DNA from: a virus
DNA: 42,857 nt
Virus record (IMG/VR): IMGVR_UViG_3300020462_000013
Coordinates: 1-42,857 of that record
Strand: one strand, 5' to 3'
Shown here one piece after another: positions 426-39,600 of the stretch. The position numbers and the translations under genes were made by a program. Within the stretch, counting starts at the first letter, position 1, and each line of letters starts with the position of its first letter. Under the pieces are notes generated by a model. The model did not search any database, was not told the DNA's origin, and saw only the letters and a program-made list of their open reading frames with translations.

Positions 426-1106
426 ATGTCTTGTTTGATTACTAACTTACCTTCTACTGAGGTATGGGTGCGAAAAGAATACCTAACAGATCACACATCT
501 GGTTGGGGTGAATTTGAAAAAGGTGTATGGGTATCTGCTAAATCTATTCCTGGTCGTGCATTTTATTTTGAAACTTATCTACCAGAATATGGTGCAATGT
601 ATGATAAATTACCTATCAGTGCATTCTTAGCAGAGCCCAAAACACCTGATCCTGATATGAACCTACGTAATTTACAATTTTGGAATTGTATGGATTATGG
701 GGTAGTTGCTGTTCAGAAGCAGTTTATTGGGTCAATGGATTATGAAGTTTATACACGTGATTATGGTACAATGAAAGGTACATATGTTTGTACATTAGAT
801 AACTATCATCAAGATCCTGATACAGTAGATTATAGTTGTTCAGAAAATCCAGCAGAACATAAGTCGCATAATCTAATTGAATTAGAGAATGGTCAGTATT
901 GTTTATATCCTAACAATAGAACACGTATCTATGATAACAGTTTGACACCAGAAAAACCCAAAACACCTGACTTCAAGGTATCTACTGAATATTATCAAGT
1001 TGAGAATGGTTATGATAGAGATGGATTAGGTGATCAGGATTCTTATTTCTGGAAAACTACAAAGGATAGAAAAAGTGAATTGGATGATCTTTTAGATCCC
1101 CTTTAA
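426..1106 (+). CDS. Conserved phage protein of unknown function (226 aa)
   Basis: The product is a 226-residue soluble acidic protein. It is rich in Tyr, Asp and Asn, with no signal peptide, membrane segment or recognisable catalytic motif. It begins MSCLITNLPSTEVWVRKEYL and contains a segment typical of a folded beta-rich domain (SIPGRAFYFETYLPEYGAMYDKLP, about residues 40-63). The start at ATG 426 follows a pyrimidine-rich stretch without a clear Shine-Dalgarno sequence. The gene lies between a terminator and the late promoter of gene 25. I believe similar proteins sit near gene 25 in T4-like cyanophages, but I know no role. A structural or accessory assembly role is possible from context only. 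Confidence 0.8.
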   Translation: MSCLITNLPSTEVWVRKEYLTDHTSGWGEFEKGVWVSAKSIPGRAFYFETYLPEYGAMYDKLPISAFLAEPKTPDPDMNLRNLQFWNCMDYGVVAVQKQFIGSMDYEVYTRDYGTMKGTYVCTLDNYHQDPDTVDYSCSENPAEHKSHNLIELENGQYCLYPNNRTRIYDNSLTPEKPKTPDFKVSTEYYQVENGYDRDGLGDQDSYFWKTTKDRKSELDDLLDPL

Positions 1107-3629: not shown

Positions 3630-6600
3630 ATGGCGGTAGATAGAGTACAACTTCAGGATGTCATTGCATCCCAAATCCCTACTTATGTAAGGGATGACTT
3701 TCCTTTACTTGTTGATTTTTTAGAAGAATATTATATTGCACAAGAGACACAAGGTGCTACTCTTGATTTGATTGAAAATCTTGATAAGTATGTCAAGGTA
3801 GATCAACTTGCTAATTTAAAAACAGAAACTCTTCTTGCTGAAGATTTAGATGTTGATGATACTACAATTACTCTATCATCTGAAACTAATTTTACATATG
3901 GATTTCCAGATGAGAATGGATTGATTCTAATTGATGATGAGATTATTAAGTATGGGACTAGAACTGATACAACCTTTGAGGACTGTGTAAGAGGGTTCAG
4001 TGGTGTCACACAATACATAGACACACTAATTCCTGATAAGCAGGTATTTAAGCAATCTAATAGTGCAGAACACACTACTGGTGCTACTGTAAAGAATTTA
4101 AGCATCTTATTCTTACAAGAATTCTTTACAAAATTAAAAACACAAATCACACCAGGATTTGAGAATAGAACTCTTGCTGATACATTAAACCAGAAAAACT
4201 TTATAAAGTCAGCAGATACTTTCTACAAAGCAAAAGGCACTGATGAATCATTCAAGATTCTATTCAAGGCAATCTATGGTGTAGATGTTGATATTCTCAA
4301 ACCAAATAATTTTTTAACAAGACCATCTGATGCTTCTTACATTGTAAGTCAAGATTATGTAATTGAAGGTTATGTTGGAGATATTGAAGAATTAAAGAAT
4401 AGAACCATCTTCCAAAATGCAACTGGTGCCAGAGGCACTGTGAATAAAGTTGAGAAGTTAAATGTAGATGGTGACTTTTGGCAAATTTCTATTGATACTG
4501 GATATCAACGTGACATTGATGTTGATGGAACAATCTATGGAAAGTTTGAACCAAATTCAAAGACAAAACTTCTGAATAATGTAGGTGTTGGTGCTACTAT
4601 CTTAGATGTAGACTCAACAATTGATTTTGCATCTTCTGGTAGTTTATCAATCATTGATGATAATGGTGATGAGCAATTTCTTTCATATACTGATAAAAAT
4701 CTCACACAGTTTATTGGTGTAACTACCACCACCACAACAATCTCAAAGAAAACTGACATTAGAGAGAATGATTATTCATATGCCAATATTGGAGTTGGAA
4801 CTGATAATCAAGTAAGATTTAGAATTCTCTCAACACTCAAAAATATTGAATACCTTGAAGATAACTTTGGTTTCAGTAAGGGTGATAGAATTACACTCAA
4901 AACTATTGGTGTAGAAGATGATACAATCAAGTCAGATTGGTTCTATAATGTTAAATCCAAACTTGATGTAAAATCAATTGAAGTAAGTAATGCCACTAGC
5001 AACATTTACAGAATTGTATTTTATGAGGATCATGACTTAGTAGTCAATTATGGTGTTGTTTTAACTAACCTTGACCTTAACACCACCATAACTGGTGTAG
5101 TTGATAATGTTGAGAAGACTAACTGCCTGAATGTAAGATTTTCAGGGACAATTCCTGTTGCAACATTAGGACAAAGATTTAGTCTTGAAAATCAAGTATT
5201 GAAGGGCAATTCATCTGAACTACCTTCAATCACTACAATCAATGCCAATGTTCTGAATACTTACATCAAACAAGATAAGTATTTGATTGCGTCTAATAGT
5301 ATTCCAAACTATGAAGATGAAATTAGAAGTGATGATAAAGTAGTATCATTTACTGGTTCAGCAGATGGTGATGGTACAATCACTCTCTCTATCAATCAAG
5401 ACCATGGTTTCTTTAATGGTGATGCTGTTTATTATAAGGGTTCAACCACCACAACCACCACATCTATTGATGGTGGAACATTTGTAGACACCACCACAAG
5501 TAAGTTTACAAATGTAGAAGAGGGTGTATACTTTGTTTATAGAAAAGATGCTTTCTCAATTCAACTTGCAAATAGTAAGTCAGAATTGTATGAAGGCAAA
5601 TTTATCACACCAACTGGTAGTGTAACAGATAACACGTTTACTTACTACCCCTTCTATGAGAAACCACTTACAGGACAGAAATTATTCAGAGAAGTAACTG
5701 ACATTGTTCAAGAGGCAGGAACCTTCCCAACAAAACCTGGTAAAACTGGTATCTTGCTTAATGGTGTAGAGATTGAAAATTATAAGTCAGATGATGTTAT
5801 CTATTATGGTAACATTGAATCATTTGAAGTAACAAGTCCTGGTAAAGGATATGATATTATCAATCCACCAATTCTGACCATCTCTGATGGTTCAGGTTCA
5901 GGTGCTAGCGGTATTGTACAAGTATCTGGTGAGTTAACAGATTTAAGAATCACAAATCCTGGATTTGATTTTGTTGAAACACCAAAAGTAACTATTGAGG
6001 GTGGTAGTCCAACTAGACCAGCAGTTGTTGGTGCCAATTTAAAAAAGGTTGAACATAAGGTTCCTTTTAATGCTGGTATCAATCTTAATAATCTTGATGG
6101 TGGTGTAAGTATTGTAAATGATATCATTGGTTTCTCTACATTCCACAATTTAAGAGAAAATGAGCAAATCATATATGACCCCAACACTTCTCCTGTTGCT
6201 GGATTAGGAACAAATCAAACATATTTTGCTAGACTTATTAGTGATACACAAATTAAACTTCACTCTTCATTCAGTGAGTGTATTGCTGGAATCAATACTG
6301 TTTCTATCAATGGATTTGGTAATGGACAGCAATCATTCTCCTCTGTTGATAGAAAACAAGTAGTAAGTAGTCTGGTTATTTCAGACCCTGGTTCTGGTTA
6401 TAAAAACCAAGAGACAAAGATATCTGGTTTAAGCACATCACTTAATACACTTACTGTAAACTCCCATGGTTACAGTACAGAAGAGAAGGTTAGATATTGT
6501 GATAATGGTTCTGATCTTGTAGGTGGATTGAGCACTACCACAAATTATATTGTAAAGAATATTGATACTAATACTATTCAACTATTTTCTGATCTTACAA

Positions 6601-9600
6601 ACTTATCAAGAAATATTCCTGTTGATATTGAGTCAGATGGTGGTGGCTGCTTTAATTACATACCAATCACTGTTACAATTGAAGGTTTAGTTGGTGTTGG
6701 TTCCTTTGGTCATAATACAACTTGCACAGTACAACCTATTTTTAGAGGAAGCATTACTGGTGCTGATGTTCTTGAATCTGGTGTTGGTTATGGTTCATCT
6801 GAAATCTTTAACTTTGACAGAAAACCAAATGTCACTCTTGATAGTGGCACAGGTGCTCAACTCCAACCAATTGTTGAGAATGGTTCTATAACAGAGGTTG
6901 TTGTAAGAAATGGTGGAAGTGGATACAACAGTCCTCCTGACCTGACTGTGACTCTTGGCAGTTACTGCAAACTCACACCTGTTGTTGAGAATGGTTCTAT
7001 TAAGTCAGTTATTGTAACAGCAGGTGGTATCAATTATAGAAATGATTCACTTATCATAGTAACTCCTGCTGGTCAGGAAGGTGCGATTGCTGGTAACATT
7101 AACCAATGGACAATTAATAAGTTTGAACAGAAGTTTGCAAAACTGACTGATGATGATTGTATCATTACAGAAGGTTCTATTGACAACACATTACAGTTGG
7201 CACACCTTTATGCTCCTAGGAACATAAGGTCAGTTAGATATGGCAATAAGTCAAATCTTGAAGCACAATACCAATATCCTGACCTTTACATAGAACAGGG
7301 GATTGAGGTAGATAGTAAGTATCACTCTCCTATCATTGGATGGTCTTATTGTGGTTCTCCCATTTATGGTCCTTATGGATATGAGACACCAGATGGTGGT
7401 GCTGTTAAAAGAATGATATCTGGTTATGAATTAGAGGCAGGTCCAAATAGACCACCCCTCAATTTATACCCCTTGGGTTTCTTTGTTCAAGACTATGTTT
7501 TCAGAGGAACAGGTGACCTTAATGAAAGTAATGGTAGATTCTGTGTCACACCTGAATTTCCAAAAGGAAGATTCTGTTACTTCACAACTATAAGAAAAAA
7601 CACTGATAGTGGTGGTCCTTTCAATAACTTGAAGAGACCTGTATTCCCATACTTGATTGGTAATACATTCCAACACAAACCAAATGATTTTAACTTTAAA
7701 AAATTATCAAATCATGTTGATTATGATTTAGTATCAAATGATTGGAGAAGAATTACATCACCTTACAAGATTAACACAAACTATGGTGGATATGATTATA
7801 TTTTCAGTTCAAATGATGTAAAAGAACAAGTTATTGAAGTAACTGGAATTTCCAAGGGAAGTGTTGATAATGTTGGCATCTTTACTGGTGGTGTAAACTA
7901 TAAGGTAAATGAAAAAGTTGTATTCAAAGGTGACACTAATGGAAAGGCAGCAAGAGGTGTAATTGAAAAGATTGATGGTAAGAAGGTAAAGAATGTAAAT
8001 ATCCAAACTCAACAATTTGTCAATATTGAGTTTCTTAATGTTGGTGTTGCCAATAAGTTTGTTGGATTCTTAACAGCACCTCATAATCTTGTAGATAATA
8101 CAAGATTGAAGATTGATGGTCTGTCTGATTACTTTGCTGGATTTGACAAGACATATAACATTGGAATCAACAGTGGTTCATATGTTCTTCTTGATGATGT
8201 TGATACATCAGCAAACACTGGTATTGTAACTTATTTCAGTGTTGGTGGTGCTTTCCAGTATCCATTCATGAGACCCAATGATATTGTTTCTATTGAGTCA
8301 GAGAAAGTAAAAATTCTCAATAGTGACCCTCTTAATAATAGAGTAAGGGTACTAAGAGCACAGCAGGGCACAGTAGGTGCTTCTCATACAGGCAATGTAA
8401 GTCTATTCCAAGACCCAAGGTCATTTGCCATTGAAGTTGGCACATTAAAGACTACAAAACTTTTAAAGACAAATACTGAATTTTACTTTGACCCAAGTGA
8501 ATCATTAGGTATTGGAACTGAAACAACCATTGGTGCTGGCAATACCATCAACTTCTCCAATCCTGGTGCTGGTATTACAAACATATTTGTACAGAACCAA
8601 CATATCTATCTACCCAATCATACATTTAAAATTAATGACAATGTTACTTACCACACCAATGGTGGTAACTCAATCCAAGTGTATAATGGAAAGACTGGTG
8701 TAGCATATACCACTCTTGAAAGTTATACTCCATTATATGTTGCTCCAATAGATAGAAACTTTATTGGTATCTCATCTGTTAAGATTGGTCTCACAACAAC
8801 AGGTTATGTGGGTCTTGGTTCAACAGCAGATGTTGGACTGTTCTATTTTACAAACCTAGGAACTAATGTTTATCATAGTTTTAAAACCAACTTTGATAAT
8901 GTAGTCACAGCAAAGGCAGAAAGAACAAATGTAACTGTTTCAACAGCGAGTTCACATGGTTTGTTTGTCAATGATAATGTTGTTTTTAGTCTTAATCCAA
9001 AAAACCAAAGAACAATTACTGTAAAATATGATGATTTCAATAGAAGAATTGTATTTGACCCACAGACATTTGTAGCAGGTAATGTTGACGTACAAGATAA
9101 TACAATTGGTTTTACCACTGGATTCTTTAAGACTGGTGATAAAGTAATTCACACATCCAGTTCAGTGTCTGGTGGTTTGGTGAATGAAAAGATGTACTAT
9201 GTTGTAGTTCATTCCCCAGATAGAATTAAGTTAGTTGAAGAGAAGTATCAATTGGATGAACTCTCTCCCAATTTTATTGACATCACATCTGCTGGTCAGG
9301 GAACATTATCAAAAATTAATCCAGTTGTCTCTGCTGATTCAAATATCAAATTTGACCTTTCTGACCCCTCATTGTCATTCACATCCAACTCCATTAAGTA
9401 TCCTGCTTTCAAGATGGAGATATTCAATGATGCTCTTCTCATCAATCAATATCTGTCCTCTGGTGTTGATGCTGATTTTAATGTCAAAACGAAAGGCATT
9501 GTTGGAACAGATGGTGAACTGACTATTGATGTAAAAGATATTCCATTTTCTTTATACTATAAGTTCAGCAATGTCAATCAATCTTTTGTAACACAAGAAA

Positions 9601-12600
9601 AGTTGCTTGTTGTTGATGATGATGTCAAATCATATAATACCATATTCAAGTCTCTGTCTATTCTTGATGGAAATCACTCTGTCACAAGTATTGGTACAAC
9701 TACCTTTACATATGAATTAGATACAGTTCCTTCAATTATTTCATACAATGAAACAACTGCTGATGCTGAATATTCAACAACATCATCAAATGCATATGGT
9801 GCAATCAATAAAGTAAACTTGGTTGATAATAATTATGGATATGTTTCATTACCAGGTATTTCCTCAATCAAGTCTGGTATTGGTACAGGTGCTATCCTCT
9901 TTGCTGAATCTAGATCCATTGGCAGAATCAGGAATCAAAAATTCCAATCAAATAATATTGGTTGGAATTATCCCACTGACAGAACACTAAAACCAACTGC
10001 CAATCTTCCTGAAATTGTTGAAGTAAATCCCCTTGCTTCTTTTGAAAGGATTGGAATCACATCATCAGGTGTTGATTATTTGGTAGCACCAGACTTGGTT
10101 GTAAGAGATGGTGTAACAGATAGTTTAGTTGATTGTGATTTAAAATATGAGTTAGGTGACCCAGAGGTTACTATCATTGCAAATTCCAGAGGATTCTTCC
10201 CAACAACACCCAGAATCATCACAATAAACAATTCTAATGGTTATTCAATTGGTGGTGTAACTCTCACAGACAAACTTGTTAAGTTAGACATTGTTAATCA
10301 GTTCAATAGTGATAGTGAGTATCCTTTCAGCATTGGAAGTAAGATTTATGTTGAAGGTATTAATGTTGGTTCTATTGCAACAGCAAAAGGATACAACTCA
10401 GACCAATATAAGCACAAACTATTCACAGTTGTTGGTGTAAAAACCAATGCTGGTGGTTCTGGTGCTTATGTTGAATATTCCTTAGAAGATGACCTTACTG
10501 ATACTGAAAGTCCTGGTAGTGTTGTTTCATTCAATTCAGCAAGAGTGATTGCTGAAAACCATCTTCCCACATTTGATGTTTCTCTTGGTAGGAATAAGTT
10601 TTTAACTGATGAAACAGTATCTTGGGATTCCAAAAAAGGTTTAATTGATGAATATAATAATGATACTGACATTTTAAAGGTAAAAACACAATTTGACATC
10701 CCTGTTGGTGACACCTTAATTGGTGAATCTTCAAAAACAAGAGGTATTGTAGTTAAGAAATGGGATTTCAAAGCAGATATCAATGTTGGTGCTGGAACAA
10801 CCATTAACTATGGTTGGACAAAGAACACTGGTTTCTTAAATGACCCATTACAGAGAATGCCAAATAATGAGTATTATCAAAGATTCTCATATTCTCTGAA
10901 ATCAACCATCCCACTTGATGTTTGGGACAATACAGTTGGGGCACTTAACCACACAGCAGGATTTAAGAAGTTCTCTGACCTTCAAGTAATAAGCACACCA
11001 GAGGAAACTCTTGAAGTTAACACTAATGACACAGAATTGTCATTTATTGTTGATTGTATTGGTGAAGGAGATTTGAACTGCTGGCATGATTATGACAATG
11101 CCAAGGAAAATATCTATTCTGTAAATGGCAAGGATTATTCAGACACTATTCTGTTTGAGAATGCTATTCTCACTGATTATTTTGAATCAAAGGGCAATAG
11201 AGTATTAAGAGTTGATGATGTAAGTGAATTCTTCAATAGCAATGAAAGAGCAGAGGCATTTTCTGCTGTTGCCAACTTTGATACTTCTGTTAAATTTGCT
11301 AAATCACTATTCTACATTCAAGATACTACATTTACTGATGAAAGGCAGTTCCAGGTCACAACAGCAATTGTTGATGATGACCTTTACTACATTACAACAT
11401 ATGCTGAACTGACTACATTCCCAAGATTGGGTGATATTGATATTCAGGTAACAGAAGATAACTGGGAATTTGAGTTCCATCCCATCAAATTTGAATATAA
11501 CAACTATGAAGTTTCATCATTCACATTTGCCTTTGAACCAGCAGCAACTGGTGTTGCTAATACATCATTTGGTGATGTAATCTTCTTTGATAACCAGGAA
11601 GTCAACATTCCAACAGGTGCAACAACTAATATTGTCTCTGTTGGCACTTCTTACAGGTCAGCAAAGGTATTGAATATGATTGTAAGTGATGACCATCATC
11701 ATTTTGCAGAAATCAATATTATTCACGACAATTCAACAGTTTCATTTGTTGAATATAATAATTTAGATGAAGGTCCAAATCCATATGCTGGTGGTATTGG
11801 AACATATAGTGCTGCCATAAGTGGTTCTAATCTTCTCCTTAAATTCCATCCAAATGCTGGCATAGCAGCAACATCATACAGTCAAGTTGTAAGCACTGCC
11901 AGAGGTAATTCAACAACTGGATTTGTTACAATGACCACTGCCAAGATTGGTAGTGCATATACATCAATTTCCTCATCTGGTTCACCTTCTGCTCACGTTT
12001 TGAGCAGTTATGACACTGTTGACCCTGGTGAAAAATACAGTGCTTCATATCAAATCATTACAGTTGAAGATACTGGAAATGGTGACTATGAAACATTTGA
12101 ATTTGGTTTAATTAATTCAAAAACCATCACAACTCAAAATTATGTTGAATTTGGCAATGTAACAACCAATTCAAGTCTTGGTACAATTGGTGTTAATACC
12201 ACTGGTGATAATGTTCAGGTAACATTTACTCCTAATGCAGGTATTGCTGTTGAAGTCAAATCATTCTTCAGTGATTTAAGAGAAATTGAACCTAATACAA
12301 AGGTCAATAAAATTGAAATGAATGATGGAGATTTGAGAACAGTTCAAGGTAACTATTTTGGAACAAAGAGTGCAGTTACAAAAGATTTCAATCTCTTCCA
12401 CAATGGTGACCCAATTTTCCAAAGACAGTTTGATGGAAGTTCAACATCTGGTGTCAATACAATAACAAATCAGATTGCACTTCCTAATCACTTCTTCCAA
12501 AGTGGTGAAGCAGTTAAGTATGAAGTAACTGGCACTGATACAAGAATCCAAATTGTAAATACTGATTTTGGTGGTAGTGTTGGTTCAACAACCCTTCTTC

Positions 12601-15600
12601 CAACTGACCTTTTTGTTGTTAAGTTTGATGATGCACATATTGGTTTCTCAACAACTGCTGTTGATGCCCAGGCAATCAATCCAACAACAATTGACTTAAC
12701 AAATGTTGGTACTGGCAATTCACACTTTGTAACTGCCACAAAGCAGAATACAAAGATGTTGGTCACTATTGATAATATGCTTCAATCACCAGTTGCTAAA
12801 ACTGACATTACAGCAACTCTTCAATCAGACATTATCTTTGATACATTCTTCAAAACAAGTGGCATTACATCCATATCATCAAATGATATTGTCAAGATTG
12901 ATAATGAGTTTATGAGAGTGACATCAGTCACAGGAACTGGAACAACAATCTTTGTTGAGAGACCAATTCTTGGTACTGAAATTGAAGCTCATACTGTTGG
13001 TGCAACAATTGAAAAATTTGTTGGCAACTACACTGTTTCTGATAATAAAATCAACTTTGTAAGTGCTCCTTATGGAAAAAATCCATTAAGCACAACAACA
13101 AATCCACCAGATTCAAGAGATTGGACTGGAATTACTACAAGTTCTTCTTTCAGTGGAAGAGTATTCTTGAAGAGAGGTGTTGAAGGTTCTACAACTGAAA
13201 CTTATAACAATAACTTTGTATTTGATGATGTTTCAGACCAATTCACTGGTTTGACAAGTGAATTTACACTTAAATCAGATGGTGTTGATGTAAGTGGTAT
13301 TGCTACAAATAGCATTATCAGTGTTAACAATATTTTCCAGTCAACACAAGGAGTTCAGTCACTTGAAGTTGGTGAATATCAGATTTTTGAATCTGCTGGT
13401 GTATCAACAGCTCAATTTAGTGGTGTTGGAACACCTCTTGGATATGATGTGAATAGAGGTGGTCTTCCTATTGGTGGAATGATCGTTTCTGTTGGTTCTA
13501 TTGAAGGATTAGGTTATCAACCACTTGTGAGTGCTGGTGGTACTGCTGTTGTATCTACTGCTGGAACTATTCAGTCAGTAAGCATTGGAAATAGTGGTTC
13601 TGGTTACAGAACAGGTGTTGCAACAGCATATAATGTTGGCGTACAAACCTATGTGGGTGTTGTTCCTGTTCTTGAACATATTGGAACAGCAATTGTCACT
13701 GGTGGTCACATTACAAGCATTAATATTACAAATCCAGGTTCAGGTTATACAAATACCAATGCTCCTGTTGTGGTAATTGACCAACCATTAAACTATACAG
13801 GCATTCCTCTTGAATATTCCTCTACATCATCAGGAAGTGGTTCACAAGCAACTATTGATATCAAGGTTGGACAAGGTTCAAGTGTAATTGAGTTTGAAAT
13901 TAATGATTTTGGTTATGGATTTAAGAAAGGTGAGGTATTGACAATTCCAACTGGTGGAACCACTGGAATACCAACAGATACATCATACTCATTTAGTGAA
14001 TTCCAAATTTCAATTCAAGAAATTTACAGTGATAACTTCCTGGGATACTCACCTGGTGAATTCCAAGTATTGGATAGAATTGATAGTAAGTTTAATGGTA
14101 TTGATAGAGTATTCCCACTCACATTAGAGGGTAATCCTGTTTCAATTAAGGCAGCAAGAGATTCAAACATTGAAGTTGACCAAACCTTGCTGATTTTCAT
14201 TAATGACATCTTACAGGTTCCTGGAAAGTCTTATGTGTTTGAGGGTGGTAGTCAAATTGTCTTTAATGAAGCACCTAAGGGACCTGGTTCAGGTATTCCA
14301 GAGGGTGATACATCAAGAATCCTATTTTATAGAGGAGCAGGTGCCAGTGATGTTGTTTTTGTTGATGTTCTGGAAACAGTTAAGATTGGTGACACTCTTC
14401 AATTGAATGCTGATATTGAATCAGGTCAAAGTATTGTGCTGAATGAAGATAAGAGAGTTGTAACTGGTATTACAACTGTTGATTCAGTTCAAACAAATGC
14501 TTATCCTGGTCCAGGTCTTTCTAATGATAAAACTCTTACTAGACCACTGACTTGGTGTAAGCAAACAGTTGATAGAAGAATTGATGGTCAGTTTATTGGA
14601 AAGGACAGACCAAAGTATGAACCAATTATTACTCCAACATCATATTTACTGCAACCTGTTTCTACTGGTTCAACTCAAATCTATGTTGACAATGTAAGAC
14701 CATTGTTTGATGGTAGAAATGAAGGCACAGTTAGAACTTTCCAGAATAAGATTTGTGTGATTTCACAAGATGTGATTGTTGGAGCAACTGCTTCTGCCAC
14801 TGTTTCAGTTGCTGGAACAGTTACTGGTTATACAATCACTAATGCTGGAAGTCAATACACTTCCACACCAACAGTTTCTATTGCTGGAACTGCTACTGCC
14901 ACTGCTACCATATCTGGTGGTTCTGTTACTGCTTTAACCACCACTGATAGTGGTGGAGGTTATACTGAGGCACCTTTGGTTCTTATTGAGGAACCAAAAC
15001 TGATTAAAGAGAATATTAATGTAACTTCTTATTCTGGTGATGATGGTATTATTGTTGGATTTGGAACTACATCTTACACAGGTAAGACACAAGTAGTTTT
15101 TGACTTCTTTATCCCAACAGATTCCTTCCTTAGAGATGCATCACTTGTAGGCAGTGCTATCACTGTAAGTGGAATCTCAACAGGTGATTTCTTCACTTGT
15201 TTTGGTACAAATATGGTAACTGATTTGAGTGAGATTATATCAGTTAAGACTGATAATGTAACTACCATTGGTGTTACAACAACTTTTGCTGATTCTGTAT
15301 ATCAAGCAGAAAGAGTTGAGGTAATATCAAGTGAAGTGATTGGCATTGGAACAACAGTGGTAGCAAGAGTATTTGCTAACATTTCTGGAATAAGTTCAAT
15401 TTCATTCTCAAGTTCCTTGCTGAACTTTGATTCAACATTATTCACATTTGATAGCCAAACAGTTGAAGTTTATAGTGGTGGTATTGCTAGTTCTCACAAT
15501 ATGGGCAAATTCAGTTGGGGCAAGATTGCCCTTGGTGAAAGAGTTAGTGCTCAGTCATTCAATTTCTATGGATTGAATGGTCATTCTGGAATTTCGTCAT

Positions 15601-15650
15601 CAGGTTTAGTCCAAAGATATAATCCCTTGAAGTACAAGAATTATATCTAA
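3630..15650 (+). CDS. 7: Giant gp7-like baseplate protein with YHYH and GxGY modules (4006 aa)
   Basis: This 4006-residue protein follows gene 6, the position of T4 gene 7 (1032 aa, the wedge arm). Residues 1-300 resemble the C-terminal third of T4 gp7. IPTYVRDDFPLLVDFLEEYY corresponds to the T4 MPDSYLLQDSNFEAF region, FYKAKGTDESFKILFKAIYG to FYSTKGIEASYKFLFKVLYN, and NRTIFQNATGARGTVNKVE to GQTIYTATGRCNVTYIE. The remaining 3700 residues are beta-rich modules: GxGY repeats (about 734-1144, 3316-3390, 3732-3790), a YHYH-family domain (about 1230-1325), three dE..V..RG..H modules, a duplicated IHD-type module (about 2671-2887), and a fibre-type FINDILQ...GD module (about 3487-3600). No frameshift or stop interrupts 12 kb. 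It probably serves as wedge scaffold and external decoration. The gp7 assignment is strong by position and moderate by similarity. Confidence 0.8.
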   Translation: MAVDRVQLQDVIASQIPTYVRDDFPLLVDFLEEYYIAQETQGATLDLIENLDKYVKVDQLANLKTETLLAEDLDVDDTTITLSSETNFTYGFPDENGLILIDDEIIKYGTRTDTTFEDCVRGFSGVTQYIDTLIPDKQVFKQSNSAEHTTGATVKNLSILFLQEFFTKLKTQITPGFENRTLADTLNQKNFIKSADTFYKAKGTDESFKILFKAIYGVDVDILKPNNFLTRPSDASYIVSQDYVIEGYVGDIEELKNRTIFQNATGARGTVNKVEKLNVDGDFWQISIDTGYQRDIDVDGTIYGKFEPNSKTKLLNNVGVGATILDVDSTIDFASSGSLSIIDDNGDEQFLSYTDKNLTQFIGVTTTTTTISKKTDIRENDYSYANIGVGTDNQVRFRILSTLKNIEYLEDNFGFSKGDRITLKTIGVEDDTIKSDWFYNVKSKLDVKSIEVSNATSNIYRIVFYEDHDLVVNYGVVLTNLDLNTTITGVVDNVEKTNCLNVRFSGTIPVATLGQRFSLENQVLKGNSSELPSITTINANVLNTYIKQDKYLIASNSIPNYEDEIRSDDKVVSFTGSADGDGTITLSINQDHGFFNGDAVYYKGSTTTTTTSIDGGTFVDTTTSKFTNVEEGVYFVYRKDAFSIQLANSKSELYEGKFITPTGSVTDNTFTYYPFYEKPLTGQKLFREVTDIVQEAGTFPTKPGKTGILLNGVEIENYKSDDVIYYGNIESFEVTSPGKGYDIINPPILTISDGSGSGASGIVQVSGELTDLRITNPGFDFVETPKVTIEGGSPTRPAVVGANLKKVEHKVPFNAGINLNNLDGGVSIVNDIIGFSTFHNLRENEQIIYDPNTSPVAGLGTNQTYFARLISDTQIKLHSSFSECIAGINTVSINGFGNGQQSFSSVDRKQVVSSLVISDPGSGYKNQETKISGLSTSLNTLTVNSHGYSTEEKVRYCDNGSDLVGGLSTTTNYIVKNIDTNTIQLFSDLTNLSRNIPVDIESDGGGCFNYIPITVTIEGLVGVGSFGHNTTCTVQPIFRGSITGADVLESGVGYGSSEIFNFDRKPNVTLDSGTGAQLQPIVENGSITEVVVRNGGSGYNSPPDLTVTLGSYCKLTPVVENGSIKSVIVTAGGINYRNDSLIIVTPAGQEGAIAGNINQWTINKFEQKFAKLTDDDCIITEGSIDNTLQLAHLYAPRNIRSVRYGNKSNLEAQYQYPDLYIEQGIEVDSKYHSPIIGWSYCGSPIYGPYGYETPDGGAVKRMISGYELEAGPNRPPLNLYPLGFFVQDYVFRGTGDLNESNGRFCVTPEFPKGRFCYFTTIRKNTDSGGPFNNLKRPVFPYLIGNTFQHKPNDFNFKKLSNHVDYDLVSNDWRRITSPYKINTNYGGYDYIFSSNDVKEQVIEVTGISKGSVDNVGIFTGGVNYKVNEKVVFKGDTNGKAARGVIEKIDGKKVKNVNIQTQQFVNIEFLNVGVANKFVGFLTAPHNLVDNTRLKIDGLSDYFAGFDKTYNIGINSGSYVLLDDVDTSANTGIVTYFSVGGAFQYPFMRPNDIVSIESEKVKILNSDPLNNRVRVLRAQQGTVGASHTGNVSLFQDPRSFAIEVGTLKTTKLLKTNTEFYFDPSESLGIGTETTIGAGNTINFSNPGAGITNIFVQNQHIYLPNHTFKINDNVTYHTNGGNSIQVYNGKTGVAYTTLESYTPLYVAPIDRNFIGISSVKIGLTTTGYVGLGSTADVGLFYFTNLGTNVYHSFKTNFDNVVTAKAERTNVTVSTASSHGLFVNDNVVFSLNPKNQRTITVKYDDFNRRIVFDPQTFVAGNVDVQDNTIGFTTGFFKTGDKVIHTSSSVSGGLVNEKMYYVVVHSPDRIKLVEEKYQLDELSPNFIDITSAGQGTLSKINPVVSADSNIKFDLSDPSLSFTSNSIKYPAFKMEIFNDALLINQYLSSGVDADFNVKTKGIVGTDGELTIDVKDIPFSLYYKFSNVNQSFVTQEKLLVVDDDVKSYNTIFKSLSILDGNHSVTSIGTTTFTYELDTVPSIISYNETTADAEYSTTSSNAYGAINKVNLVDNNYGYVSLPGISSIKSGIGTGAILFAESRSIGRIRNQKFQSNNIGWNYPTDRTLKPTANLPEIVEVNPLASFERIGITSSGVDYLVAPDLVVRDGVTDSLVDCDLKYELGDPEVTIIANSRGFFPTTPRIITINNSNGYSIGGVTLTDKLVKLDIVNQFNSDSEYPFSIGSKIYVEGINVGSIATAKGYNSDQYKHKLFTVVGVKTNAGGSGAYVEYSLEDDLTDTESPGSVVSFNSARVIAENHLPTFDVSLGRNKFLTDETVSWDSKKGLIDEYNNDTDILKVKTQFDIPVGDTLIGESSKTRGIVVKKWDFKADINVGAGTTINYGWTKNTGFLNDPLQRMPNNEYYQRFSYSLKSTIPLDVWDNTVGALNHTAGFKKFSDLQVISTPEETLEVNTNDTELSFIVDCIGEGDLNCWHDYDNAKENIYSVNGKDYSDTILFENAILTDYFESKGNRVLRVDDVSEFFNSNERAEAFSAVANFDTSVKFAKSLFYIQDTTFTDERQFQVTTAIVDDDLYYITTYAELTTFPRLGDIDIQVTEDNWEFEFHPIKFEYNNYEVSSFTFAFEPAATGVANTSFGDVIFFDNQEVNIPTGATTNIVSVGTSYRSAKVLNMIVSDDHHHFAEINIIHDNSTVSFVEYNNLDEGPNPYAGGIGTYSAAISGSNLLLKFHPNAGIAATSYSQVVSTARGNSTTGFVTMTTAKIGSAYTSISSSGSPSAHVLSSYDTVDPGEKYSASYQIITVEDTGNGDYETFEFGLINSKTITTQNYVEFGNVTTNSSLGTIGVNTTGDNVQVTFTPNAGIAVEVKSFFSDLREIEPNTKVNKIEMNDGDLRTVQGNYFGTKSAVTKDFNLFHNGDPIFQRQFDGSSTSGVNTITNQIALPNHFFQSGEAVKYEVTGTDTRIQIVNTDFGGSVGSTTLLPTDLFVVKFDDAHIGFSTTAVDAQAINPTTIDLTNVGTGNSHFVTATKQNTKMLVTIDNMLQSPVAKTDITATLQSDIIFDTFFKTSGITSISSNDIVKIDNEFMRVTSVTGTGTTIFVERPILGTEIEAHTVGATIEKFVGNYTVSDNKINFVSAPYGKNPLSTTTNPPDSRDWTGITTSSSFSGRVFLKRGVEGSTTETYNNNFVFDDVSDQFTGLTSEFTLKSDGVDVSGIATNSIISVNNIFQSTQGVQSLEVGEYQIFESAGVSTAQFSGVGTPLGYDVNRGGLPIGGMIVSVGSIEGLGYQPLVSAGGTAVVSTAGTIQSVSIGNSGSGYRTGVATAYNVGVQTYVGVVPVLEHIGTAIVTGGHITSINITNPGSGYTNTNAPVVVIDQPLNYTGIPLEYSSTSSGSGSQATIDIKVGQGSSVIEFEINDFGYGFKKGEVLTIPTGGTTGIPTDTSYSFSEFQISIQEIYSDNFLGYSPGEFQVLDRIDSKFNGIDRVFPLTLEGNPVSIKAARDSNIEVDQTLLIFINDILQVPGKSYVFEGGSQIVFNEAPKGPGSGIPEGDTSRILFYRGAGASDVVFVDVLETVKIGDTLQLNADIESGQSIVLNEDKRVVTGITTVDSVQTNAYPGPGLSNDKTLTRPLTWCKQTVDRRIDGQFIGKDRPKYEPIITPTSYLLQPVSTGSTQIYVDNVRPLFDGRNEGTVRTFQNKICVISQDVIVGATASATVSVAGTVTGYTITNAGSQYTSTPTVSIAGTATATATISGGSVTALTTTDSGGGYTEAPLVLIEEPKLIKENINVTSYSGDDGIIVGFGTTSYTGKTQVVFDFFIPTDSFLRDASLVGSAITVSGISTGDFFTCFGTNMVTDLSEIISVKTDNVTTIGVTTTFADSVYQAERVEVISSEVIGIGTTVVARVFANISGISSISFSSSLLNFDSTLFTFDSQTVEVYSGGIASSHNMGKFSWGKIALGERVSAQSFNFYGLNGHSGISSSGLVQRYNPLKYKNYI

Positions 15651-15674: not shown

Positions 15675-18600
15675 ATGGCGAAACTAGGAATTAATACTGG
15701 ATCAGCGCCAAATGATGGCAATGGAGATACTTTATTAAGTGGTGCTGTTAAGATTAACAGTAATTTTAATGAATTATATGCATTACTTGGTAATGGTACA
15801 GCATTATCTGGTGTTGTTACATCATTGACTGCTGGCAATGGTATCTCCCTAAGTGCATCATCAGGTTCTGTTCAAGTCTCTTCCTCAGCTGGATCAACAG
15901 CAGATGTAAGAGCAAATACATTAGTGGTCACTGGTGTCAGCACACTGGGAACAATTAATGGTAATGGGTCAGGTTTAACAAATCTGCCAGCAGGACAATT
16001 AACAGGCACAATTGCTGATGCTAGATTTCCTAGCACATTACCTGCTGTTTCTGGTGTTAATTTAACTGGCATTACAACCCTCATCAAAGCTGGCACAGAT
16101 ATTTCAGTAGTAACCAGTGGTGGAATCACCACAATTACATCCACAGCAAGTGGTACTGGTTCAACAGCAAATCTCAGGTCAGATTCTCTTGTTGTCACTG
16201 GTGTATCTACACTTTCAGACCTTACTGTCACAGGGGTAAGCACACTTGGTGTAGTAACATCAGTTACGTCAATTTTAGCAACCAAGTATTATGGTGATGG
16301 TTCCTCTCTGGCAGGTGTTAATTCTGAAAGATTTGACACTGGTACTTTAAATGTAACTGGTGTTTCAACATTCAATGACCAGGTGAATGTTTATTATGGT
16401 AAGAAAATTGTAATGGGTGAACCAGGTTATAATGCTGGAAAGGTTCAAATATACACTGGAAATGGTCAAGTAAATGATTACTTTGAGATTGACCCCTCAG
16501 TAACTGATGATATTACATTGAGGCATTCTGGCACAAATGCCAGAGCCTTTAAGATAATGTCTACTGGCAATATTGGTATCAATACAGTAGACCCAGCAGC
16601 ACAATTTGATATTGCTGCTAATACCAGAGTTACAGGAGTTTTAACTGCCACCCAGTTTAGTGGTAATGTTCCTGCTTCCAATCTAACTGGTGCTTTACCA
16701 GCTCTTGATGGTTCAGCATTAACTGGAATTACAGGTTCAGGTTCTGGTGTTGTTGTCAAGCACGATGGTTCTACTATTGGTACAGCAGGAACTATCAACT
16801 TCTCCACAAATCTGGATGTATCTGCCATTTCTGCTGGTGTTGTTACAGTCACAGCATCTGGTGGAAGTAGCACAGTAGGCACAAGTGGAACTTGGGCAAA
16901 CTATGATGGTGTAACTGGTGTTACAACAACTAAGAAAGTTAAAATTCAGAATGACCTTGAAGTTACTGGTATTCTGACAGCATCTTCACTAGATGCCTCT
17001 ATTTCACAATGGGATCTAGGCGCTGATGGTACTAATAATTATACCTTCACTGGACCTGGATTCACTGGTGCTGAAAATGACCCAACACTGTATTTGGTAA
17101 GAGGACAGAAGTATAAGTTTAAGAATGCAATGGGTGCTCACCCATTTAGGATTCAGAGCACTGTTAATGGTTCAGCAGGAACAACATATAATGATGGCGT
17201 AACCAATAACAATGTGTCTAATGGCACTTTGTCTTGGAATGTTCAATTTGATGCACCTGATATCTTGTATTATCAATGTACTGCTCATAATAATATGGGT
17301 GGTAAGATTTATATTGGCAATAGTGGTGATACATCTACTATTGGTGGTCAGGTCATCAACACAACTGGTATCAATGTCAGTGGTGTAGTCACAGCAACTT
17401 CATTTGTAGGAAATTTAGTTGGAATTGCAACAACAGCAACTAATCTTGCTGATGCTGCAAATATTACAACTGGTACAATTGCTGATGCTAGGTTCCCTGC
17501 TACATTACCAGCAATTTCTGGTACAAATCTGACCAATCTCAATGCTGGCAATTTGGCATCTGGCACAATGCCTGATGCTAGATTCCCATCTGTGCTTCCT
17601 GCCATTGGTGGTCAGAGTTTGACTGGTGTAACCACAGATGTTGAGTTTGCTAGTCTTCAAGCACAAGTCAATACCCTTGCTAATAATCTTAATATTATTG
17701 GTTTCTACAATGCCACAGCAGGTGTAGTTACTGCACTTACAGTGGTAGGTGAGTCAAGGAGTTATATTAGTCTTGGTGCAACACTACCAAGTTCTGGTAT
17801 TCACACTGGTGATTATCTGATTGTTTCAACAAATGGTAGTAATGTTGGAGTAGCATCATACCTATCAATTGGTGTTAGTACAGCATATTCTGGTGACTGG
17901 ATTGTTGGTGCAAGTGGAACAGAATGGGAAGTATTATCTTACTCCTCTGCTGTTGTAGCACCAAGAGCAACTAATGCTGATTTTGCTGATACACTGAAAT
18001 CTACATCAAGTGTCATTACAAGTGGTATTATCACTGCTGCTTCATTTGCAGGTGATGGCACAAATCTGACTGGTGTTGCCTCCACTGATTATATTGTTAC
18101 TGGAACAGCAGCAACCTTTAATAATGTAGCGATTTTTAATGATAATTTAAGAATTGCTGATAATGTAAAAGCACAGTTTGGCACTGGATTTGATTTAGAA
18201 ATTTATCACGATGGTTCTAACAGTTATATTGGTGATGTAGGAACAGGTGCTTTAAGAATTGGATATAATGGAACTCCTGAACTTTATCATGGCACCTCAA
18301 AGAAACTTGAAACTGTTAGCACTGGTGCCACAGTAACAGGTACAATGTTTGCCACCCAGTTTAGTGGTGGTGGTTTGATGGCAGAAAGAACAACAGTCTC
18401 TGGTGTTACCACTGCTATTGCTCAACTTGGTATTGGACACACTGATATCACTGGATTTAAATCATATGCTCTGATGAAAGTTGGTCTGTCCACAGCAGGG
18501 TGGTTCAGACTATATACAGATAGTACATCTAGAACAAATGACCTTTCAAGAAGTGTTGGAATTGACCCATCACCTGGAAGTGGAGTTATTGCAGAAGTTG

Positions 18601-18761
18601 TAACCACTGGTGTTTCAACATCTCATATTATCACTCCTTTCGTGACAGGTGGCAATATGGATGAACCTGCAACCACAACAATGTATGCATCAGTACAAAA
18701 TCTTTCTGGTGTAACCACAGAAATTTCAATCAATCTAACACTTCTTCAACTGGAGGCATAA
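15675..18761 (+). CDS. Tail-fibre-like protein with embedded cupredoxin domain (1028 aa)
   Basis: The protein is built from fibre modules common in cyanomyoviruses: repeated VTGVSTL strands, YYGDGSSLAGV, three copies of a GT..DARFP..LPA..G..LT unit (about residues 112-135, 598-622 and 631-652), and an EIYHDGSNSYIGDVGTG unit (about 842-858). Residues 440-550 differ and resemble a cupredoxin (blue copper) domain, with LVRGQKYKFKN, AHPFRIQ and YYQCTAHNNMGGKIYI. The four ligands of a type-1 copper site would be H489, C535, H538 and M541, with amicyanin-like C-x2-H-x2-M spacing. It is probably a trimeric fibre or baseplate-attached structural protein. The gene follows a CTAAATA motif and precedes the next gene by 6 nt. 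Host binding is inferred from domain type only. Confidence 0.82.
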   Translation: MAKLGINTGSAPNDGNGDTLLSGAVKINSNFNELYALLGNGTALSGVVTSLTAGNGISLSASSGSVQVSSSAGSTADVRANTLVVTGVSTLGTINGNGSGLTNLPAGQLTGTIADARFPSTLPAVSGVNLTGITTLIKAGTDISVVTSGGITTITSTASGTGSTANLRSDSLVVTGVSTLSDLTVTGVSTLGVVTSVTSILATKYYGDGSSLAGVNSERFDTGTLNVTGVSTFNDQVNVYYGKKIVMGEPGYNAGKVQIYTGNGQVNDYFEIDPSVTDDITLRHSGTNARAFKIMSTGNIGINTVDPAAQFDIAANTRVTGVLTATQFSGNVPASNLTGALPALDGSALTGITGSGSGVVVKHDGSTIGTAGTINFSTNLDVSAISAGVVTVTASGGSSTVGTSGTWANYDGVTGVTTTKKVKIQNDLEVTGILTASSLDASISQWDLGADGTNNYTFTGPGFTGAENDPTLYLVRGQKYKFKNAMGAHPFRIQSTVNGSAGTTYNDGVTNNNVSNGTLSWNVQFDAPDILYYQCTAHNNMGGKIYIGNSGDTSTIGGQVINTTGINVSGVVTATSFVGNLVGIATTATNLADAANITTGTIADARFPATLPAISGTNLTNLNAGNLASGTMPDARFPSVLPAIGGQSLTGVTTDVEFASLQAQVNTLANNLNIIGFYNATAGVVTALTVVGESRSYISLGATLPSSGIHTGDYLIVSTNGSNVGVASYLSIGVSTAYSGDWIVGASGTEWEVLSYSSAVVAPRATNADFADTLKSTSSVITSGIITAASFAGDGTNLTGVASTDYIVTGTAATFNNVAIFNDNLRIADNVKAQFGTGFDLEIYHDGSNSYIGDVGTGALRIGYNGTPELYHGTSKKLETVSTGATVTGTMFATQFSGGGLMAERTTVSGVTTAIAQLGIGHTDITGFKSYALMKVGLSTAGWFRLYTDSTSRTNDLSRSVGIDPSPGSGVIAEVVTTGVSTSHIITPFVTGGNMDEPATTTMYASVQNLSGVTTEISINLTLLQLEA

Positions 18762-18767
18762 GGAAAA

Positions 18768-20348
18768 ATGGCAGTAACAACTAACACATACACAGCAAGT
18801 TCAGGATGGAGCAGAGGAGATGTAGTCAATCTCCTTGAAAGTGGATTTGCATTCGCTGAACTTCATGGTGCTCCATTATCGGGAATTGGCACTGCTCTCA
18901 AAGCTTTTAGTGGTGGTGGATCAGTAGGTGCAGCTTACACTTATTATTATGATGTGCCTACAACTTCATCTGGTAGTGGAGTAAATGCAACAGTTAATGT
19001 AAGAAGAAGCAATGGACCAGTTGTTGATGTAAAACTCAATAAGGTTGGATATAATTATGCTGACAATGAAGTTCTTACAATTGATGCAGCTCATATTGGT
19101 GGTACATCAAATGGTGCAGTTGCCATTGGATGCACTCTCAATGTGATGGGAGGTGGCAGTCCAACAAGTTATGGTTCAACCACTACTTTCTTCAGAAAAG
19201 AAACTAATAGTAGTTACGATACAAACAGACCTTATGGTATGTTGAGACAGGTTAGAAACCAAAGTAAAAAATACGGAACAACTTACAGAGGATTTAAAGT
19301 CAGAACTGATAATCAATTAATTGTATCAGTTGGTCCATCATATGCTGTAAATCAAGATGATCAGACTGGTCTTGGAATGTATGGTGATTCACTGAGAGGA
19401 ATGCCATATTTTGATGTAACTGGAATTTATGGTGATTCACTGAGAGGAATGCCATATTTTGATGTAACTGGAATTTATGGCGACAGGATGAATTATGATT
19501 TTTCCGCTTATGGACAAATTACTAGTAGTAGTAACTTCAATTATGCATCAGATTCAAATCCCACATCACATGATTTAAAATTAAATGTGTATAGATCAGC
19601 AATTGATCCCACATTTAGTGTATTTTCTTTTGAACAACCAGGCATTGATGGATCAATGACAGATTCAACATTTTCTACTTTTATAGTACATAATTTTGAT
19701 AGCTCATTGTGGGATTATGATGAAGTATGGACAGCAGGTATTACTTTTGTATCTGTTAGTGATATACAAAATACAAATAATGCAACTTATGCTGGTGGAT
19801 TGAATTTAAACATGTGTATTGCTGGAAATGCAAGTAGTTATGGCGAAAATTTTTCTGCTACCAGAGCTGCTGAGTGTGGTTATGGGCAATTTTATTATGA
19901 AAATCATTATGGAAATAGATTTGTGACAACTAGATTTGTTCCAACAGGTTCAGATTATATAAACTCATCACAAGCACGAGTTGATGCCACTGCTGCTTAT
20001 GATGGTTATTCAGATTCTAGAATCTTTACAAGGAGAGGTGGAAGAAAAGATAAAGGATACTCCAATGACGATAGTAGTGATCCTAATCGTTATTCAAATT
20101 ATGATCCCATTACTCAAACAAAAAGTGTTATAAAAGGAATTCCCATTAACCCAGCTTTGGTTCCTTGTCCATATTTTATGCCAGATGATTTTGTTATTAT
20201 TGAAATGACACTTGATGCATCAGAACAAAATGTCAGACAAGGAGACACTATTACAATTAGTGGTTCTGAGGTTTATACAGTCATTACTGCATCATATAAC
20301 AAATATAGTCAAACTTCTGGACTCTTCTTCTGTGCGAGGAAAGTCTGA
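18768..20348 (+). CDS. Virion structural protein with internal tandem duplication (526 aa)
   Basis: The start at ATG 18768 is supported by AGGA at 18761-18764. The N-terminal 130 residues contain a GSGVNATVNVRR segment followed by KVGYNYADNEVLTIDAAHIGG, a variant of the GxGY/NY structural module seen in neighbouring baseplate proteins. Residues about 140-200 (PYGMLRQVRNQSKKYGTTYRGF) look like a folded domain. Residues 205-236 are two identical 16-residue copies of YGDSLRGMPYFDVTGI, followed by a partial third start (YGDRM). The C-terminal 290 residues are Tyr, Ser and Asp rich and unknown to me. The gene overlaps the next by 1 nt (TGATG). It is probably an adhesin or baseplate-attached protein, with no specific function assignable. 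Confidence 0.7.
   Translation: MAVTTNTYTASSGWSRGDVVNLLESGFAFAELHGAPLSGIGTALKAFSGGGSVGAAYTYYYDVPTTSSGSGVNATVNVRRSNGPVVDVKLNKVGYNYADNEVLTIDAAHIGGTSNGAVAIGCTLNVMGGGSPTSYGSTTTFFRKETNSSYDTNRPYGMLRQVRNQSKKYGTTYRGFKVRTDNQLIVSVGPSYAVNQDDQTGLGMYGDSLRGMPYFDVTGIYGDSLRGMPYFDVTGIYGDRMNYDFSAYGQITSSSNFNYASDSNPTSHDLKLNVYRSAIDPTFSVFSFEQPGIDGSMTDSTFSTFIVHNFDSSLWDYDEVWTAGITFVSVSDIQNTNNATYAGGLNLNMCIAGNASSYGENFSATRAAECGYGQFYYENHYGNRFVTTRFVPTGSDYINSSQARVDATAAYDGYSDSRIFTRRGGRKDKGYSNDDSSDPNRYSNYDPITQTKSVIKGIPINPALVPCPYFMPDDFVIIEMTLDASEQNVRQGDTITISGSEVYTVITASYNKYSQTSGLFFCARKV
19380..19475 (+). repeat. Perfect 48-bp tandem duplication
   Basis: 19380-19427 and 19428-19475 are identical over 48 bp and keep the frame, adding 16 residues (YGDSLRGMPYFDVTGI twice). 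The absence of even silent differences indicates a recent slippage or duplication event, or an assembly error. Confidence 0.95.
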
Positions 20349-36642: not shown

Positions 36643-39600
36643 ATGGCAAAGAAATTCAGAATTTTTGCAGATGTTTCAGCAGGTAGTATCTTCTTTGATG
36701 GAGGAAGAATTCCACCTGCACCACTTGGTGGTAAAGTTTTAGCATCAGATAACGGATCAGGAAGAGTTAGAGTTGTTAGAACTGATCTATTTGCCAAAGA
36801 TGGTGTCACTCCAAGAAGAATCTTCAAAGGATTGAAGGTAGGTAGAATTAAGAATCAAGCAAATCAAATTCTTTCTACTGATCTTGGTTTTAATTTAACA
36901 CAGATTATTGACTATATTAATGACCAGGCAAATAAGAAGGTCAATGAGATTGATTTCCAAAAAAATGGAGCATTAGTTGGTGGTGGTACAACCATCAACT
37001 TTACAGGACAAGTTGGTAGTATTTCAGTTTCTAATGACGTTGTAACTGTTGGTATTGCTACAACAGTCAGTGGATCTGGTATTATTGGAAATATAAATTC
37101 TGCTCAACTTACACCACATATCACTGGACTTGGTGGAGTTAATTTTACTCTTGGTACTGCTGATAACACACCAGCATTTGACCTGACTGATGCTCACAGT
37201 TATCCTTTTGGCATCTCCACTTCTGGTGGAATGGTTGGATCTGGTATCACCCTATTTGATTTCAGAGGTAGTGGTGTATCCACTGTCACCCCTGTAACTT
37301 CTGGTATAACAACTGTATTCTTTGAAGGTGGTTCTGGTTCTGCTGGTAATCCTGTTACTAGTGGTATCCTTACATCTAGCAATAGCACACTCAGACTCAC
37401 TCTTCAAGATGCAACCACAGTTGATGTTGATGTATCAGCATTGAATAATGTGTCACCAGTATCACTTGCTGCATCTACTTCTTACTTCTATTTGAATAGT
37501 GGTGTTCAACTCGCCAATAATCAACATGATAAAAATAATGGTGTTGTCTTCTATGGAACACCTGTCAGAAGAGGAGAGGAAATCGTCTTTGCTTTACCAT
37601 CTGGATCAGTACATGTTGGTATATGGAATGGTGGTAATGGTGTAACAGGTATCACTAATGTAAGTGACAGAGCTAATTGGTCAACCAAGTTTAGATATTC
37701 ATCAGATGATACTAGATGGCAAAATGCCAATACTACACAGGGAAAAGTAGGAATAGACCAATCAACTGATATTGAGACATCTGGTGGTACTTTTGCTGTT
37801 AGATTTGATCATCAAACAGAAAAACTACAACTCTGGAATATTGATACTGCCTATGATTGGCATGTAGCAACTGCTAATGTTGCAGTGGGAGCAACACAGA
37901 CTTATATCTATTTCTCATCAGGAGATAATACCCAAACAACTCCACCACAGTCTCTTCCAGGAATCTCAACTCTTAGATCACAAGATTTCACTCTTAAATC
38001 ATATACTGATTCAGATCGTCCTGGTGCTAGTTACTATAACGGAACCAAAGTCAATGATGTATGGAAATCCAATAAGTCATTGAGACCTGGAATGAAGGTT
38101 AAATTTACAGTTCCAACAACTGCTGGTAATCAGTATTGGGCAACAAACTTTGAAGGAACAGAAGATCTTGGTAGTGGTGAGAACAATGCATATCAGGCAG
38201 GTGAGATGACCTGGAGACTTACTAACCAGGAGAAGTTCACTGCTCATGAAGATGCTACTATGAATACTAATTATACTGCTATGGATACTAGTAGCACTAC
38301 CCTTGCTCTTCCAGGAAGGAATATGTCTTGGAGATATAATGCTGATAATACCTGGGATATCTTTGATGAGGATACTGATGAGGTAGTTCTTACTGGTGAT
38401 GATACACTTGATGGTGGTGATATGTATCCATATCTCCTTGCTGTGAATAACTCTGATGATGTTCTGTCGGATTATGCTCAGTTTGAATGGGAGTGGAGTA
38501 ACGCTAATTGGTTTACTGAATATCGTGATTATGTGAGTGGTGCTTCTGGAAACAAATTTATATCCAAAATTCCAAATGGAAAACCACTGAAGACCTATAG
38601 TCAAGCAATTCCCACTCAATCTGGTGGTTTCTATTATCTGGGTAATGCAAATTATAGAGTCACTTGGGGTGAGAAGATGAGACCTGGACAGGAGTTCTCA
38701 TGGACTCAACTTTCAGATAACAGTAATGGTGCTACTAAGAACAATATGGTTATTGGTGTTCTGAATAGTGACTCTGATGCATTTACTGCTGGTATTCACT
38801 TCAAACAAACTGGTCAACCAAAGAATCAGTCAGATCAGACTTCTGGATTTACAATCTCTGCTGGTATTGATGATACCACCGCATGTTCTGGTAAAAGTAT
38901 GAGATTACAGTATGAGTATGGAACTAACAAACTCGTATGTTATAGTTTAAACGCAGGTGTAAGAACTAAACTCGCTGAATCCACATCAGCACTGGATGGC
39001 AATCCAATCTTCATTACTCTAGGTGGAGAATCTACTAGAATTCCTACCACACAGGGTGTATCAGTATATGGTTGGGAGATTACTCATAGACCACCAAATT
39101 ACTACAACCCATGGAACAACTGGAGAATTGGTAGTTTTCCTGAGAACCAAACTGGTGTTGGTGTAGGAACTCATGTCTCTGGTAATTCACTTGCATGGGA
39201 AGCAGACCAAGCATGGAGACATAAGGATGGCATTCCTCAAGGATATAAGATGCACTGGTTATTGCCTACCTCACACCCCAATGCACAGATTGGACAGTGG
39301 AACACAGGTAATGCATCTTCTGGTTTAAGCAACATTGAGAATAATGATACTTATTGGGATTGGAGTTTTCAAAGTAATACCAGTGAAGAGATTGATGCTC
39401 TGAAAGGATTTACCTTCAATACTAGTAACTCAAATTATTCTGCAACTAAGTGGACTGACCCCAATCCTGGTAGCACCAAGTTCTCTATCAGGTATCATGG
39501 CAATAATACTGTTGATCTTTTTGATGAATCAAATCAAGCAATCATTGCCACCAAGGATGTAAATGCTGATGGCAATCCTATCTACATCAGTTGGGCAGGT

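Follow-up and report, generated by a model that had tools for sequence, protein, structure and literature searches.

Can a structural protein of a phage tail carry a copper site of the blue, type-1 kind? The question is raised by a virus record of IMG/VR, the whole of which (42,857 bases) was analysed and is called the window below. A preliminary description of this DNA had read residues 440-550 of a 1028-residue protein, taken to be a tail fibre, as a blue-copper fold flanked by ordinary fibre repeats, and had proposed H489, C535, H538 and M541 as the copper ligands. Translation of 15675-18761 agrees exactly with these four positions, and the features on which the analysis depends are as follows.

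15675..18761, + strand: gp9/gp10-like baseplate wedge / fibre-connector protein of 1028 aa, which carries the domain (ORF, PF07880, phrog_677)
15690..16103, + strand: T4 gp9/10-like N-terminal (baseplate attachment) domain, residues 6-143 (PF07880)
17007..17324, + strand: cupredoxin domain, residues 445-550 (AlphaFold2, Foldseek, VIA-align, profile against PDB)
17139..17141, + strand: codon of His489, predicted N-terminal type-1 copper ligand, which aligns with the ligand His of amicyanin and plastocyanin; 81/82 homologues
17277..17279, + strand: codon of Cys535, predicted thiolate ligand and the only Cys of the protein; 82/82 homologues
17286..17288, + strand: codon of His538, predicted C-terminal His ligand; 82/82 homologues
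17295..17297, + strand: codon of Met541, predicted axial ligand; 80/82 homologues, Leu in 2
18384..18758, + strand: C-terminal fibre domain, residues 904-1028 (phrog_15343, unknown function, E 1e-23)

The four residues follow the canonical order of a type-1 site and sit at its canonical positions: His, Cys, His and an axial Met. The pattern H-x30..70-C-x2-H-x2..4-M occurs a single time in the six-frame translation of the window. It never arose when the protein was shuffled 20,000 times, and 20,000 shuffles of the domain alone produced it 7 times. In the alignments the ligand loop, CTAHNNM, has the C-x2-H-x2-M spacing of amicyanin and not the C-x2-H-x4-M loop of plastocyanin, as had been pointed out; this spacing is not unique to amicyanin and is also present in the nitrite reductase cupredoxin domains 9cck and 6hbe.

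The carrier protein and its gene neighbourhood

The carrier matched phrog_677, 'baseplate wedge tail fiber protein connector' (E 7e-47), and passed the cut-off of PF07880 (T4_gp9_10_N) marginally, with 25.8 bits against 25; its membership in this family is indicated by the N-terminal score together with the baseplate wedge genes on either side. The ORF is placed between gp6/gp7-like and gp8-like genes. On its 5′ side are a giant baseplate-wedge-like gene and two baseplate wedge genes, which their order and size mark as gp25- and gp6-like, and on its 3′ side a gene without a family and another baseplate wedge gene are followed by those for the neck, the tail sheath stabiliser and the small terminase. 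Gene order is comparable in cyanophage Syn9, where the cupredoxin domain ends a gp10-like protein. PF07880, phrog_677, the neighbouring baseplate genes and the order in Syn9 together identify the carrier as a fibre or pin protein that is attached to the baseplate of a marine phage of the T4 type, and not as a distal tail fibre. The name of tail fibre is refined accordingly: ordinary fibre repeats do flank the domain, of a DARFPxxLPA type (at 115, 604 and 634) and a VTGVST type (at 85, 174, 185, 227, 319 and 413), and the N-terminus is the baseplate domain of the T4 gp9/gp10 type.

The giant baseplate-wedge-like protein (4006 aa, 3630-15650, phrog_2885) takes up about 28% of the contig. The 526-aa protein that adjoins the carrier downstream (18768-20348) and precedes the gp8-like gene had no match in PHROGs and contains a direct repeat with the unit YGDSLRGMPYFDVTGI.

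Predicted fold and relation to known cupredoxins

An AlphaFold2 model of the domain, computed from an alignment of 69 viral-contig sequences, had a pLDDT of 93.3, a pTM of 0.87 and eight strands. The Greek-key beta barrel of about eight strands that characterizes the cupredoxin superfamily was found both in the model and in its structural matches. H489 (model residue 49) stands immediately ahead of strand 51-54, C535 (residue 95) is the final residue of strand 90-95, the last but one, and H538 and M541 are in the loop 96-101, ahead of the last strand 102-108, so that in the predicted fold the four ligands occupy the canonical cupredoxin positions. The best whole-domain structural match by VIA-align was the N-terminal cupredoxin domain (24-137) of 2dv6, a three-domain copper nitrite reductase (Z 11.2, rmsd 2.5, 98 residues), which is tethered within an enzyme and has 17% identity to the window domain; rusticyanin (2cal) followed with Z 9.9. 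In Foldseek against PDB, most of the top rows belonged to rusticyanin or copper nitrite reductase. Amicyanin and plastocyanin were there as well, and factor V, which also consists of cupredoxin-type domains, was among the matches near the top. These results bear out the blue-copper fold proposed for residues 440-550, and the domain is almost certainly a cupredoxin by fold.

A profile of 82 homologues matched 42 PDB sequences, every one of them a cupredoxin (plastocyanins, amicyanins, azurins, pseudoazurins or copper nitrite reductases; best E 1.3e-4), and in the amicyanin alignment all four ligands coincided; the single domain had no match in PDB by phmmer, cupredoxins being reached by the profile only. 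In the search against cupredoxin families that the preliminary description had suggested, the window sequence itself stayed below the cut-offs, with 13.7 bits against 21.2 for Copper-bind (PF00127) and 14.6 bits against 110.2 for amicyanin (TIGR02657). A relative in P-SSM2 exceeds the Copper-bind cut-off (23.3 against 21.2 bits), and sub-threshold matches were obtained for 45/82 homologues with Copper-bind and 44/82 with amicyanin. With amicyanin the window domain shares the C-x2-H-x2-M loop, but it falls far under the family cut-off; with plastocyanin (TIGR02656 / PF00127) it shares the fold and the kinds of ligand, but not the loop. It is a cupredoxin, but by the criteria of those two families it is neither an amicyanin nor a plastocyanin. 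Two other Pfam matches were below cut-off: At5g54830, and CBM_4_9 in the N-terminal half.

In a library of viral folds, giant viruses of the Pithovirus- and Marseillevirus-like kinds (LCPAC302, LCMAC201) have 'beta-sandwich proteins' with similar predicted folds.

Constraint on the four ligands

The search pattern of the first homologue sample included H538 and M541 and could favour sequences that keep the ligands, and for this reason we also used a ligand-blind query, consisting of residues 440-487 only, which contain no ligand. This search returned 80 loci, all of which (80/80) aligned to the domain profile, so that none was dropped. They represent 57 distinct sequences, one of them cut by a contig end, and the His, Cys, His and Met were kept in 56/56 complete distinct domains. 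In the wider set (n=82, filtered at 90%, identity down to 29%) the full ligand set was present in 79, and a single ligand was changed in the other three, twice Leu for Met and once Tyr for the first His. When the 101 alignment columns of this set are ordered by conservation, the ligands take the 3rd, 4th, 6th and 7th places. The earlier proposal would have been weakened by homologues that lose ligands freely, and neither sample behaves in this way.

The ligand codons vary between synonyms in the 82 sequences (CAT/CAC, TGT/TGC), indicating selection at the protein level and not recent copying. Exactly one Cys is present in 80/82 domains, which rules out an intradomain disulfide as the explanation for its conservation. 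The ligand set also persists in phage homologues near 30% identity, in distant cyanophage paralogues, in the Prochlorococcus podoviruses P-SCSP2 and P-GSP1 and a Methylophilales phage. The few matches without the ligands (L202, L205, L206) are remote, are among the weakest of the matches in cyanophages, and may not be cupredoxins at all. These alignments show that the ligand set is selected and strongly constrained.

Leu replaces the axial Met in two homologues (L074, L077). An axial Leu is found in some laccases, and a shifted redox potential would be expected in these two domains if copper is bound.

Distribution among phages and bacteria

By tblastn (E<=1e-5) the domain was found in 330 phage records, which by name are nearly all Synechococcus or Prochlorococcus phages, the remainder being marine single-cell viruses and one Pelagibacter phage. 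Copper or redox activity on a fibre had been called unusual in the preliminary description; the domain, however, is no peculiarity of one phage, and tails of marine cyanophages commonly have it. The same domain, at up to 74.5% identity, with the same four ligands and in the same baseplate or fibre context, is present in the 'long tail fiber proximal subunit' of S-SCSM1, the 'tail spike' YP_214529 of P-SSM2 and Syn9 gp102. These three records have no cupredoxin annotation, and the database names of phage homologues are, for example, 'tail fiber' or 'hypothetical protein'.

In the window protein the domain is in the middle; in Syn9 it is C-terminal, and in P-SSM2 it is close to the N-terminus. 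Its position within the protein varies widely among the 82 sampled domains, and an N-terminal domain of the window type is in the same protein in only 23/82; these two results point to a mobile module, shuffled among many fibre and baseplate architectures. The genome of P-SSM2 has four copies. Its tail spike YP_214529 (L152, P-SSM2 219393-227734) has two cupredoxin domains in one protein, both with all four ligands, and a C-terminal Peptidase_S74 chaperone.

Among cellular proteins, the nearest relatives are secreted or resemble lipoproteins. Those of marine Flavobacteriaceae and small proteins of Pseudomonadota have 34-49% identity and all four ligands, but they are not virion parts; in the flavobacterial protein that was scanned, which is lipoprotein-like, the cupredoxin domain follows CHRD. 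The bacterial sample comprised 18 domains in 17 loci, all with the full ligand set, and came from a search whose pattern was not ligand-blind and has the same possible bias toward ligand keepers; it is limited to close relatives because a single sequence was used as the query. Phage and bacterial copies intermix in a tree of the domain, which is unrooted, the domain being too short, and poorly resolved.

Metal and role of the site

The site formed by H489, C535, H538 and M541 is very probably competent for copper. From the sequence we infer that it binds copper, mainly because an axial Met is hardly needed for zinc and the solved relatives are all copper proteins. The explanation that we favour, and hold to be probable, is a fibre-embedded cupredoxin domain with a complete and selected type-1 copper site, copper-stapled in a baseplate protein. 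The domain would fold in the apo form while the virion assembles and would bind a single copper ion supplied by the lysate or by seawater; the metal would then staple the short ligand loop 535-541 to the strand at H489, giving a rigid, protease-resistant barrel that could stiffen or position the fibre at the baseplate, or offer an adhesive face. Free copper is very scarce in the cytoplasm, the site of virion assembly, and for this reason loading before lysis is doubtful and loading after lysis likelier. Copper is likely to be present in the mature virion, that is, on the outside of the tail. In T4 the baseplate has six-fold symmetry, and gp9 and gp10 are present around it as repeated trimers, so that the carrier gene alone would provide about 18 sites per virion.

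The main role is probably structural or adhesive rather than electron transfer, and we judge a rigid or adhesive module to be the likelier because the domain is a shuffled extracellular module in phages and bacteria. The retained axial Met leaves a redox role possible, as is a role in host recognition. A functional redox site, in which type-1 copper exchanges electrons with a partner in the host envelope or periplasm, or senses redox state or copper, and helps to trigger commitment of the tail, would agree with the axial Met kept in 80/82, since a merely structural metal site would not need this weak ligand, and with the ligand loop of the amicyanin and nitrite reductase type, which serves electron transfer in known proteins. 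However, no partner, acceptor or catalytic site is visible, some homologues have an axial Leu, and the many different positions in tail proteins fit a module better than a wired electron path; we consider such a function unlikely.

Similarly unlikely is a purely structural or glycan-binding reuse of the fold, with the ligand residues kept for packing and no metal bound. The CBM_4_9 match (E 0.01) and the few remote matches without ligands agree with it, but that match is sub-threshold and misses the ligand half, and packing alone would not be expected to preserve, down to about 30% identity and in an otherwise changing sequence, two His, one Met and a Cys without a partner, arranged exactly as in a type-1 site and its loop.

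Metal on phage fibres has a precedent in iron, which is bound by HxH motifs in the T4 gp37 tail fibre and is predicted in Alteromonas phage R22Y (PMC11705849); that site is octahedral and unrelated, in site and in metal, to the present one. As has been proposed for iron in the tails of phages, fibre copper could serve as a 'Trojan horse', recognized by a metal-uptake receptor of the host, or in metal scavenging. That certain cyanophage genomes have several copies of the domain, P-SSM2 having four, would suit this. We regard it as quite improbable, because the domain is mid-protein or near the baseplate end and not at a receptor-binding tip. In known cupredoxins, moreover, the ligands of the type-1 site are largely buried, and marine cyanobacteria are known to be sensitive to copper. 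That another metal (Zn, Ag or Fe) occupies the virion site instead of copper is very unlikely, for although His2Cys sites also bind Zn(II) tightly, the conserved Met would be of little use for Zn or Fe, and all solved relatives found with the profile belong to copper protein families.

In a search of full-text literature, with subscription journals largely outside its scope, no account of a phage tail with a cupredoxin or a copper site was found; the cryo-EM paper on P-SCSP1u mentions copper for a grid only. Within the literature searched, this is a known fold in an undescribed place, a cupredoxin in a phage baseplate or fibre protein. A reported viral nirK was considered as a possible misread cupredoxin domain and was rejected, as it is described as a full nitrite reductase, with 67-70% identity to gammaproteobacterial NirK (PMC8115048).

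Should copper be present at these sites, the infection apparatus of many cultured T4-like cyanophages from the sea would bear a metal centre, and metal-bearing phage fibres would be extended from iron to copper. There would then be consequences for the speciation of dissolved copper in the ocean, and copper, redox conditions and a Cys-to-Ser change would offer a testable handle on how cyanophages hold or fire their tails. A bolder proposal, which we put forward tentatively and think doubtful, is that marine cyanophage virions are cuproproteins. Their baseplate and fibres would bear tens of type-1 copper centres, kept by selection and filled from lysate or seawater, and engagement of the host would depend on redox state or copper. 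If true, copper would join the metals found on phage tails, and phages would be a copper ligand of seawater that has so far gone unrecognised.

Other proteins in the window

A 1015-aa protein without a match in PHROGs is encoded amid tail fibre genes at 36643-39690. At the other end of the window (426-1106), a 226-aa protein matches phrog_3704, labelled 'ferredoxin', with E 2e-111. This label looks doubtful from the sequence, because its five Cys (3, 88, 122, 138 and 159) do not form the plant-type cluster motif C-x4-C-x2-C.
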